Positions 6,720 to 33,688 of a stretch of DNA of 64,000 nucleotides are shown one piece after another (positions within the stretch are counted from its first letter, which is position 1; each line of letters opens with the position of its first letter). The translations under genes were made by a program, and so were the position numbers. Location of the stretch: assembly GCF_001693435.1 (NCBI RefSeq), contig NZ_CM004509.1, forward strand, positions 2,418,001 to 2,482,000, in the 5' to 3' direction. The notes below the pieces were generated by a model that did no database searches, had not been told where the DNA came from, and worked only from the letters and a program-made list of their open reading frames with translations. The stretch comes from Gilliamella sp. wkB7 (GTDB lineage Bacteria; Pseudomonadota; Gammaproteobacteria; Enterobacterales; Orbaceae).

Positions 6720-7793
6720 ATGGCTGGAAACTCAATTGGAAAATTATTCAAAGTTACAACATTTGGAGAGTCACATGGCATTGCTCTAGGTTGTGTTGTT
6801 GATGGCGTTCCGCCGGGTCTTGCTTTGACTGAATCAGATATGCAATATGATCTTGATCGTCGCCGTCCTGGTTCATCGCGTTATACCACTCAAAGGCGTG
6901 AAGCTGACCAAGTAAAAATCTTATCAGGCGTTTTTGATGGAGTAACAACGGGAACCAGTATCGGCCTATTGATCGAAAATACCGATCAACGTTCACAAGA
7001 CTACAGCCAAATTAAGGATATTTTTAGACCGAGTCATGCTGATTACACTTATCAACATAAATATGGGATTCGTGATTACCGAGGAGGAGGGCGTTCTTCC
7101 GCGCGTGAAACTGCTATGCGAGTTGCGGCAGGTGCAATAGCAAAAAAATATTTGCATGAAAAATTAGGGATTACCATTCGTGGCTATCTAGCTCAAATGG
7201 GTGAGATAAAATGTCAATTGAAAGATTGGCAACAAGTTGAAAAAAATCCATTTTTTTGTGCAGATGAAAGTAAACTTGATGAGTTAGATCAATTATTAAG
7301 ATCATTAAAAAAAGAAGGCGATTCAATCGGTGCTAAAGTTTGTATTGTTGCTGAAAATGTACCAGTTGGTTTAGGTGAGCCTGTTTTTGATAGATTAGAT
7401 GCCGAACTAGCTCATGCACTCATGAGTATTAATGCTGTAAAAGGTGTGGAAATTGGTGATGGTTTTGATGTTATCAATAAACGTGGCAGTGAAAATCGTG
7501 ATGAAATAACACCACAAGGTTTTTTATCTAATCATGCTGGTGGTATTTTGGGTGGAATTAGCTCAGGGCAAACTATTTTAGCCAGTATTGCATTAAAACC
7601 AACGCCGAGTATTGAAATTGCTGGTCAATCAATTAATATTCATGGTGAAAGTGTTGAAGTATCAACACATGGTAGGCATGATCCATGCGTAGGTATAAGA
7701 GCCGTGCCAATTGCTGAAGCAATGGTCGCTATTGTTTTAATGGATCACTATCTTCGCTATCGCGCTCAATGTAATGATGTAAATGAATTATGA
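6720..7793 (+). CDS. aroC: Chorismate synthase
   Basis: Last step of the shikimate pathway: FMN-dependent elimination of phosphate from EPSP to give chorismate. 357 residues, full length. Signatures [23 protein letters not shown] and [15 protein letters not shown], plus the C-terminal [18 protein letters not shown], are intact. The ATG is spaced 28 bp from prmB. The last codon and stop overlap the next start (ATGA at 7790-7793), indicating translational coupling to yfcA. The mepA gene found between aroC and yfcA in E. coli is absent. Confidence 0.97.
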
Positions 7794-8542
7794 GTTATGA
7801 ACTACTTTTATTATTATTTGCTATTGCTGCTTTAGCTGGATTTATCGATTCAATTGCTGGTGGTGGAGGATTATTAACCGTACCGGCATTATTGGCGGTT
7901 GGTTTACCACCAGCAAGTGCATTGGCCACCAACAAATTGCAAAGTTGTGGTGGTTCATTTTCTGCGAGCCTCTATTTTATACGGCAAAGGATGGTTGATT
8001 TAAATCAACAAAAATGGGCAATTGTAGCGGCTTTTGTCGGTTCAGCCATCGGTACAATATCGGTAATGCATATTCAAACCGATTTTTTGAAATTATTGCT
8101 GCCAATATTAACGATTAGTGTAGGGTTATATTTTTTATTATCCCCAACGATTGGTGAAAGTGATCGTAAAAGTCGTTTTTCTGTTCTCCAATTTGCTCTT
8201 ATTCCTGCTTTAGGTATTGGCTTTTATGATGGCTTTTTTGGACCAGGTGCCGGGTCATTTTATGCTTTAGCATATATTACATTGGCAGGATTTAATCTAA
8301 CCAAAGCTACCGCCCACACTAAAGTACTTAACTTTATCTCAAATTTAGCTGGATTACTGTTTTTTATTATGGGCGGGCAAGTGGTATGGTCGATTGGTCT
8401 TGTCATGCTGGTTGGGCAGTTTATTGGCGCAAGGTTAGGCGCTAAAATGGTTATTGCTAAAGGGCGTAAATTAATAAGACCAATGCTTATTACGGTTTCT
8501 ACTATTATGAGCATTAAACTGATTTATGAAAATTTCTTTTAA
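7790..8542 (+). CDS. yfcA: TauE/SafE-family membrane protein YfcA
   Basis: 250-residue polytopic protein with the family N-terminal [20 protein letters not shown] and the mid-protein repeat [15 protein letters not shown]. This internal duplication is typical of TauE/SafE exporters, some of which move sulfur-containing organic anions. The substrate of YfcA itself is not established. It overlaps aroC by 4 bp. The transcript probably ends in the structured region at 8607-8688. Confidence 0.88.
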
Positions 8543-22016: not shown

Positions 22017-25124
<3,108 letters not shown>

Positions 25125-25219
25125 TCATTATTTATTTGCAATTTCACTTAGTAAGCTGGCTTTTTTTTATTAATTATAAATAGTTTTTATTTTATTTAAG
25201 TGATCCAGTTAACATTTTA

Positions 25220-25233
25220 TGTAATCGGTTACA
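25220..25233 (-). promoter_or_regulatory. GalR/LacI-type operator upstream of lacZ
   Basis: TGTAATCGGTTACA, flanked by A and T, fits the GalR/GalS half-site rule (TGnAAnCGnTTnCA) with a central CG. It lies 117 bases upstream of lacZ. A related site occurs before the alpha-galactosidase gene (30941), and a GalR homologue is encoded at 27374, the likely ligand. Confidence 0.75.
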
Positions 25234-25287
25234 TTTGTATTTTTATATCTTTCAAAAAATAGGATAATTAATAATAATTTCAATATT

Positions 25288-25307
25288 AATGTGACATATG
25301 TCACATT
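25288..25307. promoter_or_regulatory. CRP (cAMP receptor protein) site
   Basis: Perfect palindrome with core TGTGA (25290-25294), CATATG, TCACA (25301-25305). Its centre at 25297.5 would sit near -60 relative to the putative porin start site, a class I position. It can also serve lacZ. Confidence 0.85.
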
Positions 25308-25320
25308 ATGTATATTTATA

Positions 25321-25350
25321 TTGTTAATGATTAATTTTATTAGTTATATT
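25321..25350 (+). promoter_or_regulatory. Putative CRP-dependent promoter of the porin gene
   Basis: TTGTTA (25321-25326), 18-base spacer, TATATT (25345-25350). Initiation near 25357-25359 would place the CRP site at about -61.5 and leave the RAT and terminator in the leader. Confidence 0.5.
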
Positions 25351-25374
25351 AAATAAGCTTATTTATTAAGCATT

Positions 25375-25405
25375 GGATTGCTACCGTAAGATTATGGGCA
25401 AAACC
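25375..25405 (+). promoter_or_regulatory. Ribonucleic antiterminator (RAT), BglG/LicT/SacY type
   Basis: Begins GGATTGCTACCG (25375-25386) and ends GGGCAAAACC (25396-25405), matching the RAT consensus (GGATTGTTACTGC...GGCAAAACC). Upper stem CCGTA/TATGG over an AGAT loop; lower pairs GG/CC and TT/AA. The 3' arm AAAACC is also the first part of the terminator stem, so the two structures exclude each other. In known systems a PTS-controlled antiterminator protein binds and stabilises the RAT, permitting read-through. No such protein is encoded in this window. Confidence 0.88.
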
Positions 25406-25442
25406 TAAAAAATAGTTATCGCTATTTTTTAGGTTTTTTTTT
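25400..25442 (+). terminator. Leader terminator controlled by the RAT
   Basis: A 15-bp perfect stem: AAACCTAAAAAATAG (25401-25415) with CTATTTTTTAGGTTT (25422-25436), then an uninterrupted T-run to 25442. It precedes the porin ATG by 54 bases. A second small hairpin, GTCTCAA/TTGAGAC (25443-25460), follows. Confidence 0.9.
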
Positions 25443-25489
25443 GTCTCAAATTTTTGAGACTTCTTTAATATCTATATAATAATGAGTAG

Positions 25490-27280
<1,791 letters not shown>

Positions 27281-28720: not shown

Positions 28721-30838
28721 TTATTTGGATGTGATCCTGATAAGCATAGCAGTTGCAGGATCAAGCACAGGTAATGGTAATCCTATATTCATTAACCAAT
28801 CGCCTGAAAGAGTTGTTTGAGTTTTCATCCATACTGGTAATATTTTCATCGCATGACCACTGATTTTAGGATCAATATTGTCTGGCATATCAAGAATTTC
28901 TATTTGATATTGCTTATCTGTTAACAATCCTGTCAAACGTAAATTACCACTCAATGCATAAGTTGGTAATGCTAATTGGGCGATAATAAACGCTGCTTCT
29001 TTTTGATCTTTGCTAACAACCCCATAACTTTGCATCGCGCGAGGATCATCGACGTCCAAGCGTACACTATTACCACTATGTAATAATGGACGCAATTGTT
29101 TGTGTAAATTAATATAATGAGCAAACGCTTTTTGTTCTTTTTCAGATTCTTTAACAGGATCAAGTTCAACACCCATATGACCAAACAGTGCAGTCAAACC
29201 ACGTAAATTCATATGTAATTCGCGGAATGTAGTATGACATAAGGCACCACCAATGTGAGCCCCCATGACCTCAGGAGGGAAGAAGTAACTCATACCACGC
29301 TGAATGATCTGTCGATCTAATGCATCGTTAGAGTCTGACGTCCAGAAACGTTGAGTACGTTTTAATATTTCATAATCAATACGTCCTCCACCAGAAGAGC
29401 AAGATTCAATTTCAACATGAGGGAATTTTTCTTGTAAAATATCAATTAAACGATATAACGCTTCAGTTTGTCCAACAATGGCTGGATTACCATTGTGGCC
29501 TGCTTGCACAATTTCACGATTCATATCCCATTTGATATAGTCAATGTCATAGCTTCCAAGCAACCATGTTAATCTTTCAAGCAAATACTCAAAAACCGCT
29601 GGATTTTGCAAATCGAGTAAATATTGATGACGACCTTCAGGTTGATTATAACCATGCAGTTCTAGTAACCAATCAGGGTGAGCGCGATAAAGATCGGAGT
29701 TTTTATTAATCATCTCTGGCTCGACCCAAATACCAAATTCCATGCCCAAATCTTTAATATGTTTAATCACAGGTTCTAAGCCGTTTGGATATTTTCGTTT
29801 ATCCAAATACCAATCTCCCAACCCTTGATAATCATCGTCACGTTTACCAAACCAACCATCATCAATAATAAATCGTTCAACCCCCATATGTGCAGCCTTA
29901 GTTGCCATTTGTATAATATAGTCCGGATTATGATCAAAAAAGATACCTTCCCAAGTATTAAGATGGACTGGGCGCGGTTTATTTTGGTTAAATTTGATAA
30001 TGTTGCCACGCAAAAAATCATGGAAGTGCTGACTCATCTCATTCAAGCCTTGATCACTATAAGTTGCATACAACCAAGGAGTTGAAATTGACTCGTCTTT
30101 ACTTAATGTAATTTCTCCTGCCATATATAAGGCTTCGGCCTGAATAAAACGTTTACCATTACTTTTTACTGCTACCTGAATTCGATGATTTCCACTCCAA
30201 CCTAAATGAACACCCCATACTTCACCGGATTGTTCTTTAAAGCTATCGGTACCAACTATCATACCCGGAAAATACTCATGTGAAGTACGTCCACGACGGT
30301 TTTCTTGCAAATAACCACAATGTTCGATTTTAGTACGATGCGGAAAGAACTCCTTAATCCAACGTCCACTAAAGGCCATTAATTCTTGTGCTCTTTCTGG
30401 AATAGGAAGAGTGATTGATAAGCGATTGACCTGATAAGGTTCATTGCCTAGATTAATTAAACTATTTTGGCATTGTAATACACCGCTGTTATCTAAAATA
30501 AAATGGCTGGTGAAACGTAGGTTAGCAATATTATCTTCACTAATAATAGTGATTTCATTTTCTGTTTGAATAACTTCCTTGGTGATAAAAACAGGAGACC
30601 AATCTTTACCATTGCGATGACCTTCAAGTCCTGGTGTACTAAAATTACCTAAACCTTCTTCAGGGCATAAAGTAAACGGTACGTCAACATCAATACGCGC
30701 GTTAGGAACAGCTGGGGTTAACATTTCCAGTTTTTCGAGTTGAATGTTTTGTAAGCGTTTACCAAAATAGCTAAGTTCAGCATAAGGTGTTGTACGTAAT
30801 AGGACATCTACATTGTTATTATTAAGACGATAGTTCAT
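28721..30838 (-). CDS. Alpha-galactosidase (GH36)
   Basis: 705 residues, the length of RafA/AgaN-type GH36 enzymes, which release alpha-1,6-galactose from melibiose, raffinose and stachyose. N-terminal beta-sandwich, then a TIM barrel: IDDGWFGKRDDDYQGLGDW, nucleophile Asp438 in YIKWDMNRE, ESCSSGGGRIDYEIL and acid/base Asp502 in FWTSDSNDALDRQ. No signal peptide, so cytoplasmic. Preceded by a CRP-like site and a GalR-type operator, and probably coregulated with lacZ. SD GGAG is 6-9 bases before the ATG (minus strand). Confidence 0.93.
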   Translation of the reverse strand: MNYRLNNNNVDVLLRTTPYAELSYFGKRLQNIQLEKLEMLTPAVPNARIDVDVPFTLCPEEGLGNFSTPGLEGHRNGKDWSPVFITKEVIQTENEITIISEDNIANLRFTSHFILDNSGVLQCQNSLINLGNEPYQVNRLSITLPIPERAQELMAFSGRWIKEFFPHRTKIEHCGYLQENRRGRTSHEYFPGMIVGTDSFKEQSGEVWGVHLGWSGNHRIQVAVKSNGKRFIQAEALYMAGEITLSKDESISTPWLYATYSDQGLNEMSQHFHDFLRGNIIKFNQNKPRPVHLNTWEGIFFDHNPDYIIQMATKAAHMGVERFIIDDGWFGKRDDDYQGLGDWYLDKRKYPNGLEPVIKHIKDLGMEFGIWVEPEMINKNSDLYRAHPDWLLELHGYNQPEGRHQYLLDLQNPAVFEYLLERLTWLLGSYDIDYIKWDMNREIVQAGHNGNPAIVGQTEALYRLIDILQEKFPHVEIESCSSGGGRIDYEILKRTQRFWTSDSNDALDRQIIQRGMSYFFPPEVMGAHIGGALCHTTFRELHMNLRGLTALFGHMGVELDPVKESEKEQKAFAHYINLHKQLRPLLHSGNSVRLDVDDPRAMQSYGVVSKDQKEAAFIIAQLALPTYALSGNLRLTGLLTDKQYQIEILDMPDNIDPKISGHAMKILPVWMKTQTTLSGDWLMNIGLPLPVLDPATAMLIRITSK

Positions 30839-32889: not shown

Positions 32890-32966
32890 GGCTACGTAGC
32901 TCAGCTGGTTAGAGCACATCACTCATAATGATGGGGTCACAGGTTCGAATCCCGTCGTAGCCACCA
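32890..32966 (+). tRNA. metT: tRNA-Met(CAT), elongator
   Basis: 77 nt. Acceptor GGCTACG/CGTAGCC, anticodon loop CTCATAA (CAT), encoded CCA. Nearly identical to E. coli metT. First of seven tRNAs. Confidence 0.97.
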
Positions 32967-33003
32967 TTAAGATTAGGTAGTACTTTTACCGGAAGTATTC
33001 AGT

Positions 33004-33088
33004 GCGGGTGTGGCGAAATTGGTAGACGCACCAGATTTAGGTTCTGGCGCCGCAAGGTGTGTGAGTTCAAGTCTCTCCACCCGCACCA
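33004..33088 (+). tRNA. leuW: tRNA-Leu(TAG)
   Basis: 85 nt class II tRNA. Acceptor GCGGGTG/CACCCGC, anticodon stem CCAGA/TCTGG around TTTAGGT (TAG), variable arm present, CCA encoded. Closely matches E. coli leuW. Confidence 0.97.
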
Positions 33089-33113
33089 TTTAATCTTAAT
33101 ATTAATCCTTTAT

Positions 33114-33188
33114 TGGGGTATAGCCAAGCGGTAAGGCAGCGGGTTTTGATCCCGCCATGCCCAGGTTCGAATCCTGGTACCCCAGCCA
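33114..33188 (+). tRNA. glnU: tRNA-Gln(TTG), copy 1
   Basis: 75 nt. Acceptor TGGGGTA/TACCCCA, anticodon loop TTTTGAT (TTG), CCA encoded. Identical to the copy at 33374. Confidence 0.97.
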
Positions 33189-33265
33189 TTCCATTCTGCG
33201 TAATTTTTTAAGATGCTTTAGTCCGTTTAATTTTTTAGGTTTATACCTCTTTATTGATTATTTAT

Positions 33266-33348
33266 ACGGGTGTGGCGAAATTGGTAGATGCCCAGATTTA
33301 AGTTCTGGCGCCGCAAGGTTGTGAGTTCAAGTCTCTTCATCCGTACCA
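33266..33348 (+). tRNA. tRNA-Leu(TAA), diverged copy of the leuW type
   Basis: 83 nt. Nearly the same sequence as the tRNA-Leu(TAG) at 33004, but the anticodon loop reads TTTAAGT (TAA), one base is deleted before the anticodon stem (position 26 region) and one in the variable arm. The acceptor is ACGGGTG/CATCCGT with a G-T pair, and the D-stem also has a G-T pair. It still folds as a cloverleaf and has CCA. It may be a functional UUA/UUG reader created by duplication and anticodon change, or a decaying copy. Confidence 0.8.
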
Positions 33349-33373
33349 TTTAATCTTAATAATTATCTTTTAT

Positions 33374-33448
33374 TGGGGTATAGCCAAGCGGTAAGGCAGC
33401 GGGTTTTGATCCCGCCATGCCCAGGTTCGAATCCTGGTACCCCAGCCA
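33374..33448 (+). tRNA. tRNA-Gln(TTG), copy 2
   Basis: 75 nt, identical to the tRNA-Gln at 33114; anticodon TTG. Part of the second Leu-Gln unit. Confidence 0.97.
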
Positions 33449-33513
33449 TTTTATCCTGTATAATATATTAAAATTTTTAAATCTGATATATACTATTTTA
33501 TCAATAGTTCAAT

Positions 33514-33598
33514 ACGGGTATGGCGGAATTGGTAGACGCGCTAGATTCAGATTCTAGTTCCGAAAGGTGTGCGAGTTCAAATCTCACTACCCGTACCA
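33514..33598 (+). tRNA. tRNA-Leu(CAG)
   Basis: 85 nt. Acceptor ACGGGTA/TACCCGT, anticodon stem CTAGA/TCTAG around TTCAGAT (CAG), variable arm and CCA present. Reads CUG. Confidence 0.96.
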
Positions 33599-33613
33599 TA
33601 TATTTTTTTATAA

Positions 33614-33688
33614 TGGGGTATAGCCAAGCGGTAAGGCAGCGGATTCTGATTCCGCCATTCCAAGGTTCGAATCCTTGTACCCCAGCCA
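33614..33688 (+). tRNA. glnV: tRNA-Gln(CTG)
   Basis: 75 nt. Same scaffold as the two TTG copies, with anticodon loop TTCTGAT (CTG) and compensating anticodon-stem and T-stem changes. Reads CAG. Last of the cluster. Confidence 0.96.

Follow-up and report, generated by a model that had tools for sequence, protein, structure and literature searches.

Between a divergent lacZ gene and the galR/GH36 genes of Gilliamella sp. wkB7 lies a gene for a BglH-like porin, preceded by a leader in which a ribonucleic antiterminator (RAT) runs into an intrinsic terminator (Table 1). All positions are those of the window, the whole stretch of 64,000 nucleotides that was analysed. A first, sequence-only reading of this DNA had proposed here a BglG/LicT-type RAT overlapping a terminator before the porin gene, with a CRP site upstream. 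We confirmed both: six bases are shared by the RAT and the terminator, and the CRP site is a perfect palindrome. The stem, previously taken as 15 bp, counts 17 pairs.

Table 1. Elements of the porin leader and the porin gene (positions in the window)
Element	Position	Strand	Basis and remarks
GalR/LacI-type operator TGTAATCGGTTACA	25220..25233	.	Pattern match; lacZ side of the divergent intergenic region
CRP palindrome TGTGACATATGTCACA	25290..25305	.	Perfect; about 60 bp upstream of the predicted porin start site
Putative -10 element TATATT	25345..25350	+	Part of TTGTTA-18-TATATT; predicted start site near 25357
Small stem-loop GCTTA-TTTAT-TAAGC	25357..25371	+	By sequence; at the predicted 5' end of the transcript
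RAT, 31 nt, GGATTGCTACCGTAAGATTATGGGCAAAACC	25375..25405	+	Pattern, model R1
Intrinsic terminator	25400..25442	+	17-pair stem 25400-25437, then T-run to 25442
Second short hairpin GTCTCAAATTTTTGAGAC	25443..25460	+	Directly after the T-run; terminator-like scan
Weak, putative Shine-Dalgarno-like GAGTAG	25484..25489	+	From the sequence
LamB-family porin gene, BglH-like, N-terminal extension, 594 aa	25496..27280	+	PF02264 and homology to an annotated bglH

The distance of about 60 bp between the centre of the CRP palindrome and the predicted start is one at which CRP commonly activates. In most Gilliamella porin leaders, a TATATT or TATAGT ends about 23-24 nt before the RAT. The GalR/LacI-type operator of Table 1 probably serves lacZ and not the porin. 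Another GalR-type operator, near-complete, is found at 30750-30762, 88 bases inside the GH36 coding region; at least 10 of the 20 relatives' loci have it at the equivalent position, which may be coding conservation only. The small stem-loop drifts in sequence among relatives; by eye, its complementarity seems kept in many of them, not in L014 and L015, and the second short hairpin shows apparently compensated changes in L014. Further along, at 32890-33685, seven consecutive tRNA genes mostly alternate between two sizes (Rfam matches of about 72 and 80-82 nt).

The RAT and the terminator exclude each other

A RAT is a hairpin of about 29-31 nt built of a lower GG/CC stem, an internal loop, a UUG/CAA stem, a second internal loop and an upper stem. 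The porin RAT has this architecture, with 31 nt against the usual 29, and its upper stem is often only partly paired in relatives. We searched the 2.90-Mb genome for the two RAT halves at a spacing of 10 nt with up to three mismatches; they occur at a single place, and the reversed control pattern gave 0 matches. With our model R1, whose training set includes this very sequence, the porin RAT scores 40.2 bits. Rfam at gathering thresholds gave no match at the porin leader.

In the terminator, positions 25400-25416 pair with 25421-25437, three of the pairs being G-C, and the computed folding energy of this hairpin is -17.7 kcal/mol (z -7.9). A scan of 25104-25500 for terminator-like sites returned three (this stem, the CRP palindrome and the hairpin at 25443-25460); shuffled sequences gave 0.0 on average. 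The six bases 25400-25405 end the RAT and also begin the terminator arm; the 3' arm of the RAT thus overlaps the terminator, and the two folds are mutually exclusive. The whole terminator is worth -17.1 kcal/mol, and -7.6 kcal/mol without these six bases. When the RAT is forced, the leader folds at -12.3 kcal/mol, compared with -22.4 for the free fold. Since the RAT fold costs about 10 kcal/mol, the terminator is expected to be the default and the RAT would need a protein to form.

LicT1 is the probable cognate antiterminator

As had been claimed from the sequence, no bglG or PTS gene lies in the window: tblastn of the window (E 1e-3) with the genome's LicT1, LicT2, BglF1, BglF2 and two GH1 proteins as queries gave no match, and the porin does not form one unit with bglG, bglF and bglB as in a classical bglGFBH operon. 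The homologue search that the first reading had suggested as a check found two BglG/LicT proteins in the genome (PF03123), both encoded outside the window, so that a BglG-family protein is not lacking. LicT1 and LicT2 both have histidines at all four PRD positions of LicT (H100, H159, H207 and H269 in LicT1). With a CAT RNA-binding domain, two PRDs and these four histidines, LicT1 belongs to the BglG/SacY/LicT family; it reaches 385 bits on the NCBIfam LicT model (cut-off 300).

The licT1 gene is located about 216 kb from the porin RAT, in an operon of the order licT1, bglF1 (EIIBCA), a GH1 6-phospho-beta-glucosidase gene, a histidine-phosphatase-family gene, an OprD-type porin gene and a second histidine-phosphatase gene. 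At licT2 the order is bglF2, a GH1 gene, then licT2. We found a RAT with terminator before bglF1 (GGATTG...GCAAAACC, with an 11-pair upper stem) and before bglF2 (GGCATGTGA...GCAGGACC, beginning GGCATG), and saw none before licT1 itself. Because the porin RAT has the same recognition half as the bglF1 RAT and differs in this from the bglF2 RAT, LicT1 is the probable cognate antiterminator of the porin RAT. In the licT1 operon of this genome a worn RAT stands before the OprD-type porin gene (L004, minus strand, about 4380-4350). Some Gilliamella have a further LicT paralogue with its own bglF, GH1 gene and RAT (L160:4190-4220 and 7616-8455; read in G005).

Conservation in the Orbaceae

The search set comprised 60 relatives, including 35 Gilliamella genomes with the present one counted; the relatives named here belong to the bee-gut Orbaceae Gilliamella, Frischella and Schmidhempelia and to the more distant Cedecea and Pectobacterium. 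The porin is encoded in 25 of the 35 Gilliamella genomes. RAT and terminator precede it in all 25 orthologues, and also in Frischella (L050) and Schmidhempelia (L053). This presence in every orthologue found in the genus, together with the PRD histidines of the two BglG-family proteins, supports the earlier proposal that a PTS-regulated antiterminator controls the porin in trans. Each of the 25 Gilliamella leaders has a perfect TGTGAN6TCACA starting 84-90 nt upstream of the RAT; the palindrome is partial in Frischella, and its pattern was not found in the Schmidhempelia porin leader. In distant LamB homologues (L031-L035, 27-29% identity) there was no RAT pattern.

Among 23 distinct terminators from 27 leaders, 98.0% of the cells pair, compared with a maximum of 92.1% in 500 shuffles, and compensated changes are seen. 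For the RAT of the porin leader (21 distinct sequences) the value of 91.4% is barely above the shuffle maximum of 91.0%, because the lower half of the RAT never varies; pairs 13 and 14 of the upper stem are often mismatched in relatives. We also analysed 22 RATs of several kinds, chosen by hand for diversity. There, 96.7% of the cells pair (shuffle mean 88.3%) and 23 cells are changed on both sides (8.2 in shuffles), values reached by none of 500 shuffles; pairs changed on both sides (4 versus 3.4) and further pair types (8) were reached by 242 and 490 of 500 shuffles, respectively.

Of the 25 Gilliamella genomes with the porin, 23 have licT1; the other two genomes are 67% and 59% complete. 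When only the 30 genomes with at least 90% completeness are counted, licT1 is present in 21/21 porin-bearing genomes versus 4/9 others (Fisher p 0.0009, kinship ignored). Over all 35 genomes the p value of this co-occurrence, which is confounded by shared ancestry, is 0.012, with kinship again ignored. LicT relatives in Frischella and Schmidhempelia have 73% and 49% identity to LicT1.

The porin

The protein contains a complete LamB barrel domain (PF02264, positions 1-378 of 378, over residues 177-594; E 1.1e-74), which places it in the LamB/BglH porin family. It shares 46.5% identity over 78% of its length with an annotated bglH product (hit H12) among plasmid-borne relatives. On the NCBIfam maltoporin model LamB PRK09360 it scores 186.8 bits, below the cut-off of 394; it is a member of the LamB family and not a maltoporin proper. 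From regulon membership, homology and context, we infer that its substrate is a PTS beta-glucoside.

Other probable members of the regulon

By applying model R1 to the 60 relatives, by pattern search and by reading the regions, we obtained three recurrent RAT targets: bglF1, the porin and a GH3 glycosidase. A RAT with T-run is found behind licT1 and directly before bglF in all 28 Gilliamella licT1 loci; the CRP palindrome there is perfect in 25, near-perfect in one and absent in two. The GH3 glycosidase gene (PF00933) is present in 15 of the 35 genomes, and the start of its product resembles a signal peptide by eye, so that the enzyme is probably periplasmic. RAT and T-run precede the gene in 14 of the 15 Gilliamella genomes that have it, the 14 leaders having been fetched through R1 matches and the denominator coming from a separate search for the GH3 gene. 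The leader of G000 (C1:860349-860389, minus strand; L142, L103) has RAT, terminator and CRP site; that of G006 has a worn RAT, with a terminator-like repeat and the CRP site kept. Of the 14 leaders, 11 have a perfect CRP palindrome and three a partial one. All 15 genomes with the GH3 gene have licT1; at 90% completeness or more, this is 12/12 versus 13/18, a weak difference (p 0.066, kinship ignored). In some species (L099, L104), a RAT also precedes the OprD-type porin gene of the licT1 operon.

The RATs fall into three classes at the base of the upper stem: ACCG/CGGG (porin), AUUG/CAAG (bglF) and ACUG/CAGG (GH3 and OprD). Exceptions are the bglF leaders L068, L080 and L081, the Schmidhempelia porin and some GH3 leaders, and we therefore take drift as the null explanation. 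As a speculative and rather doubtful idea, one sensor may govern a chromosome-wide Orbaceae regulon spanning three compartments, whose RAT classes are kept by selection for different affinities; gate, periplasmic enzyme and permease would then come on in a set sequence with increasing amounts of active LicT1. If this were true, the classes would amount to a graded single-input programme written in RNA instead of promoter operators.

Weak R1 matches at G000:2154988, G018:C27, G034:C42 and G006:1674668 (E 0.0008-0.012) contained no RAT pattern with T-run on reading, and were treated as chance. Further weak matches were obtained in G012, G020, G037, G038, G047, G051 and G052. The LicT2 RAT, which was found in L005, escaped the genome-wide search with R1, and the list of regulon members may thus be incomplete.

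Alternative explanations

The switch could be real and yet answer to LicT2, or both proteins could share the site. LicT2 is indeed present with its PRD histidines kept, and its 299 bits on the NCBIfam LicT model fall just below the cut-off of 300. However, the RAT of LicT2 has different bases at the recognition positions, and full-length LicT paralogues (35-38% identity to LicT1) occur in only 6 of the 25 porin-bearing Gilliamella genomes (G000, G004, G005, G011, G018 and G032) versus 23 of 25 for licT1, which makes a cognate other than LicT1 alone unlikely. A promoter downstream of the terminator and ahead of the start codon (25454-25483), which would make the porin constitutive and bypass the switch, is in our opinion highly improbable. 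A TTGAGA-18-AATAAT in this interval scores 10 of 12, and an alternative with 15-nt spacing 11 of 12, but the four promoter-like matches of the region equal what shuffling predicts (4.1). Moreover, the best score between terminator and ATG ranges from 7 to 11 of 12 over 25 of 26 leaders (L030 unscored) and is not kept across orthologues, and a transcript starting there would begin a few bases from the ATG, with hardly any leader.

The neighbourhood suggests another possibility, that the porin belongs to the galactoside cluster and is expressed with lacZ/GH36 under GalR and CRP, the RAT and terminator being a relic or a minor attenuator. It sits between divergent lacZ and galR/GH36 beside the GalR-type operator at 25220-25233. 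Of 20 Orbaceae loci (L036-L055), 12 have matches to all three of lacZ, GalR and GH36 near the porin, a count that includes L044, with a lacZ remnant only, and L049, whose lacZ is cut by the contig end. In addition, LamB-type porins can pass several sugars. Against this, the RAT is intact in 25/25 orthologues, and it is kept in four loci where the surrounding 13.7 kb has no match to lacZ, GalR or GH36 (L043 and L052 of Gilliamella, L050 of Frischella, L053 of Schmidhempelia). Only 4 of the 20 loci have a perfect operator between porin and lacZ. As the RAT outlives these neighbours, membership of the galactoside cluster is weakened and we hold it to be quite unlikely; the persistence of the RAT in 4 of 20 loci without them favours the separation of the porin from the GalR-regulated galactosidases that had been proposed from the sequence.

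Discussion

The sequence comparisons point with high probability to an attenuation switch in the porin leader that LicT1 would run in trans, the porin being one limb of a dispersed LicT1 regulon with the GH3 enzyme, the PTS permease and the phospho-beta-glucosidase. To the first, sequence-only reading this adds the GH3 limb, a likely regulator and the existence of comparable RAT-led porins in other bacteria. In this model, cAMP-CRP would drive transcription from a start near 25357 and, when no beta-glucoside is present, RNA polymerase would halt at the 17-pair terminator, giving a leader RNA of about 85 nt. When a beta-glucoside passes through the BglF1 permease, LicT1 would, by homology with the systems below, be dephosphorylated at PRD1, dimerise and hold the RAT; the AAAACC arm would be removed from the terminator and the porin gene transcribed. 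LicT1 would also act in trans on the RAT of the GH3 gene and on that of the adjoining bglF1 operon. Outer-membrane entry, periplasmic cleavage and PTS uptake would in this way be switched together, with CRP as a second condition. This arrangement agrees with the attenuation systems of E. coli, B. subtilis and C. acetobutylicum. There, when substrate is absent, PRD1 of the antiterminator is phosphorylated by the permease; HPr acts at PRD2, and it is the antiterminator dimer that stabilises the RAT (available text of PMC7430163 and PMC12628678).

Of eight Gilliamella strains tested in rich medium, only one degraded the plant glucoside amygdalin (PMC9897726). Strain wkB308, which is not an amygdalin degrader in the same paper, carries a RAT-led porin (L055), and this counts against the model. 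If the model is right, it predicts which Gilliamella lineages can induce the uptake of plant beta-glucosides; it also names the likely regulator and offers three natural RAT classes for testing specificity.

The E. coli bglGFBH and Pectobacterium bgl/arb systems resemble that of Gilliamella in RAT type, terminator overlap, antiterminator family, kind of permease and glycosidase, and BglH-type porin. The BglH-type porin of the bgl operon is for aryl-beta-glucosides (available text of PMC2646131), and CRP activates bgl (available text of PMC9499468). In E. coli and Pectobacterium bgl, however, the porin gene is distal and the RATs flank a linked bglG (L176, L177; for E. coli, available text of PMC2646131), whereas in Gilliamella the porin gene comes with a predicted promoter, a CRP site and a RAT of its own, far from the antiterminator gene.

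Among 295 genomes sampled from the order, 20 matched the porin with an E value of 1e-80 or lower; they comprise 13 Gilliamella, one other member of the family and six outside it. Of these six, only G061 has the direct RAT-porin layout; a second RAT, divergent from the first, leads its deaminase-bglF-GH1-GH1 operon. In G061, no LicT/BglG-like coding sequence was found in 13.5 kb around its porin, and two antiterminators are encoded on other contigs. In G271 and G192, the porin gene is inside a RAT-led bglF operon with licT elsewhere; G158 and G225 have the classical operon, and the 13.5 kb read around the porin of G280 showed no RAT. On Klebsiella plasmids, one cluster (L164) opens with a BglH-type porin gene that immediately follows two tandem RAT/terminators (L164:5676-5798), and its 13.6 kb contain no LicT/BglG-like coding sequence; another (L162) has the order porin-bglF-GH1 with a linked PRD antiterminator, its RAT matches before porin and bglF being weaker (17.7 and 23.5 bits). 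In Klebsiella, bglH-yieL-yieK are reported to be separate from bglGFB (available text of PMC2646131). The plasmid porin loci L163, L165, L166, L167 and L168 had no R1 match at E 0.05. On a Pantoea plasmid, a GH3 gene directly precedes the porin gene, an adjacency that fits a joint role, and no RAT was found at this locus. A Cedecea contig has a weak RAT match of 21.1 bits downstream of its porin gene (L056:2750-2778).

The Gilliamella system is also similar to dispersed Gram-positive regulons, in which one PTS-controlled antiterminator also serves RATs that lie in a different transcription unit, as does LicT on bglS in B. subtilis. Gram-positive bacteria have no outer membrane, hence these regulons have no porin limb, and they are not known to have a CRP layer. 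Trans antitermination is further described for SacY on sacB in B. subtilis and for NagY on hylA and others in E. faecalis (available text of PMC12502629), and additional targets of E. coli BglG are reported by papers cited there. The literature searches, with most subscription papers outside their scope, gave no work on antitermination in Gilliamella; among the papers listed, titles and the beginnings of abstracts showed no RAT-controlled porin. Antiterminators acting on unlinked RATs are already known in Gram-positives, and RAT-led porins occur in some other Enterobacterales as well; what differs in Gilliamella is a probable dispersed Gram-negative regulon in which the porin is a direct target with its own RAT, and which would take BglG/LicT control beyond the self-contained operon, to scattered genes of Gram-negative symbionts.
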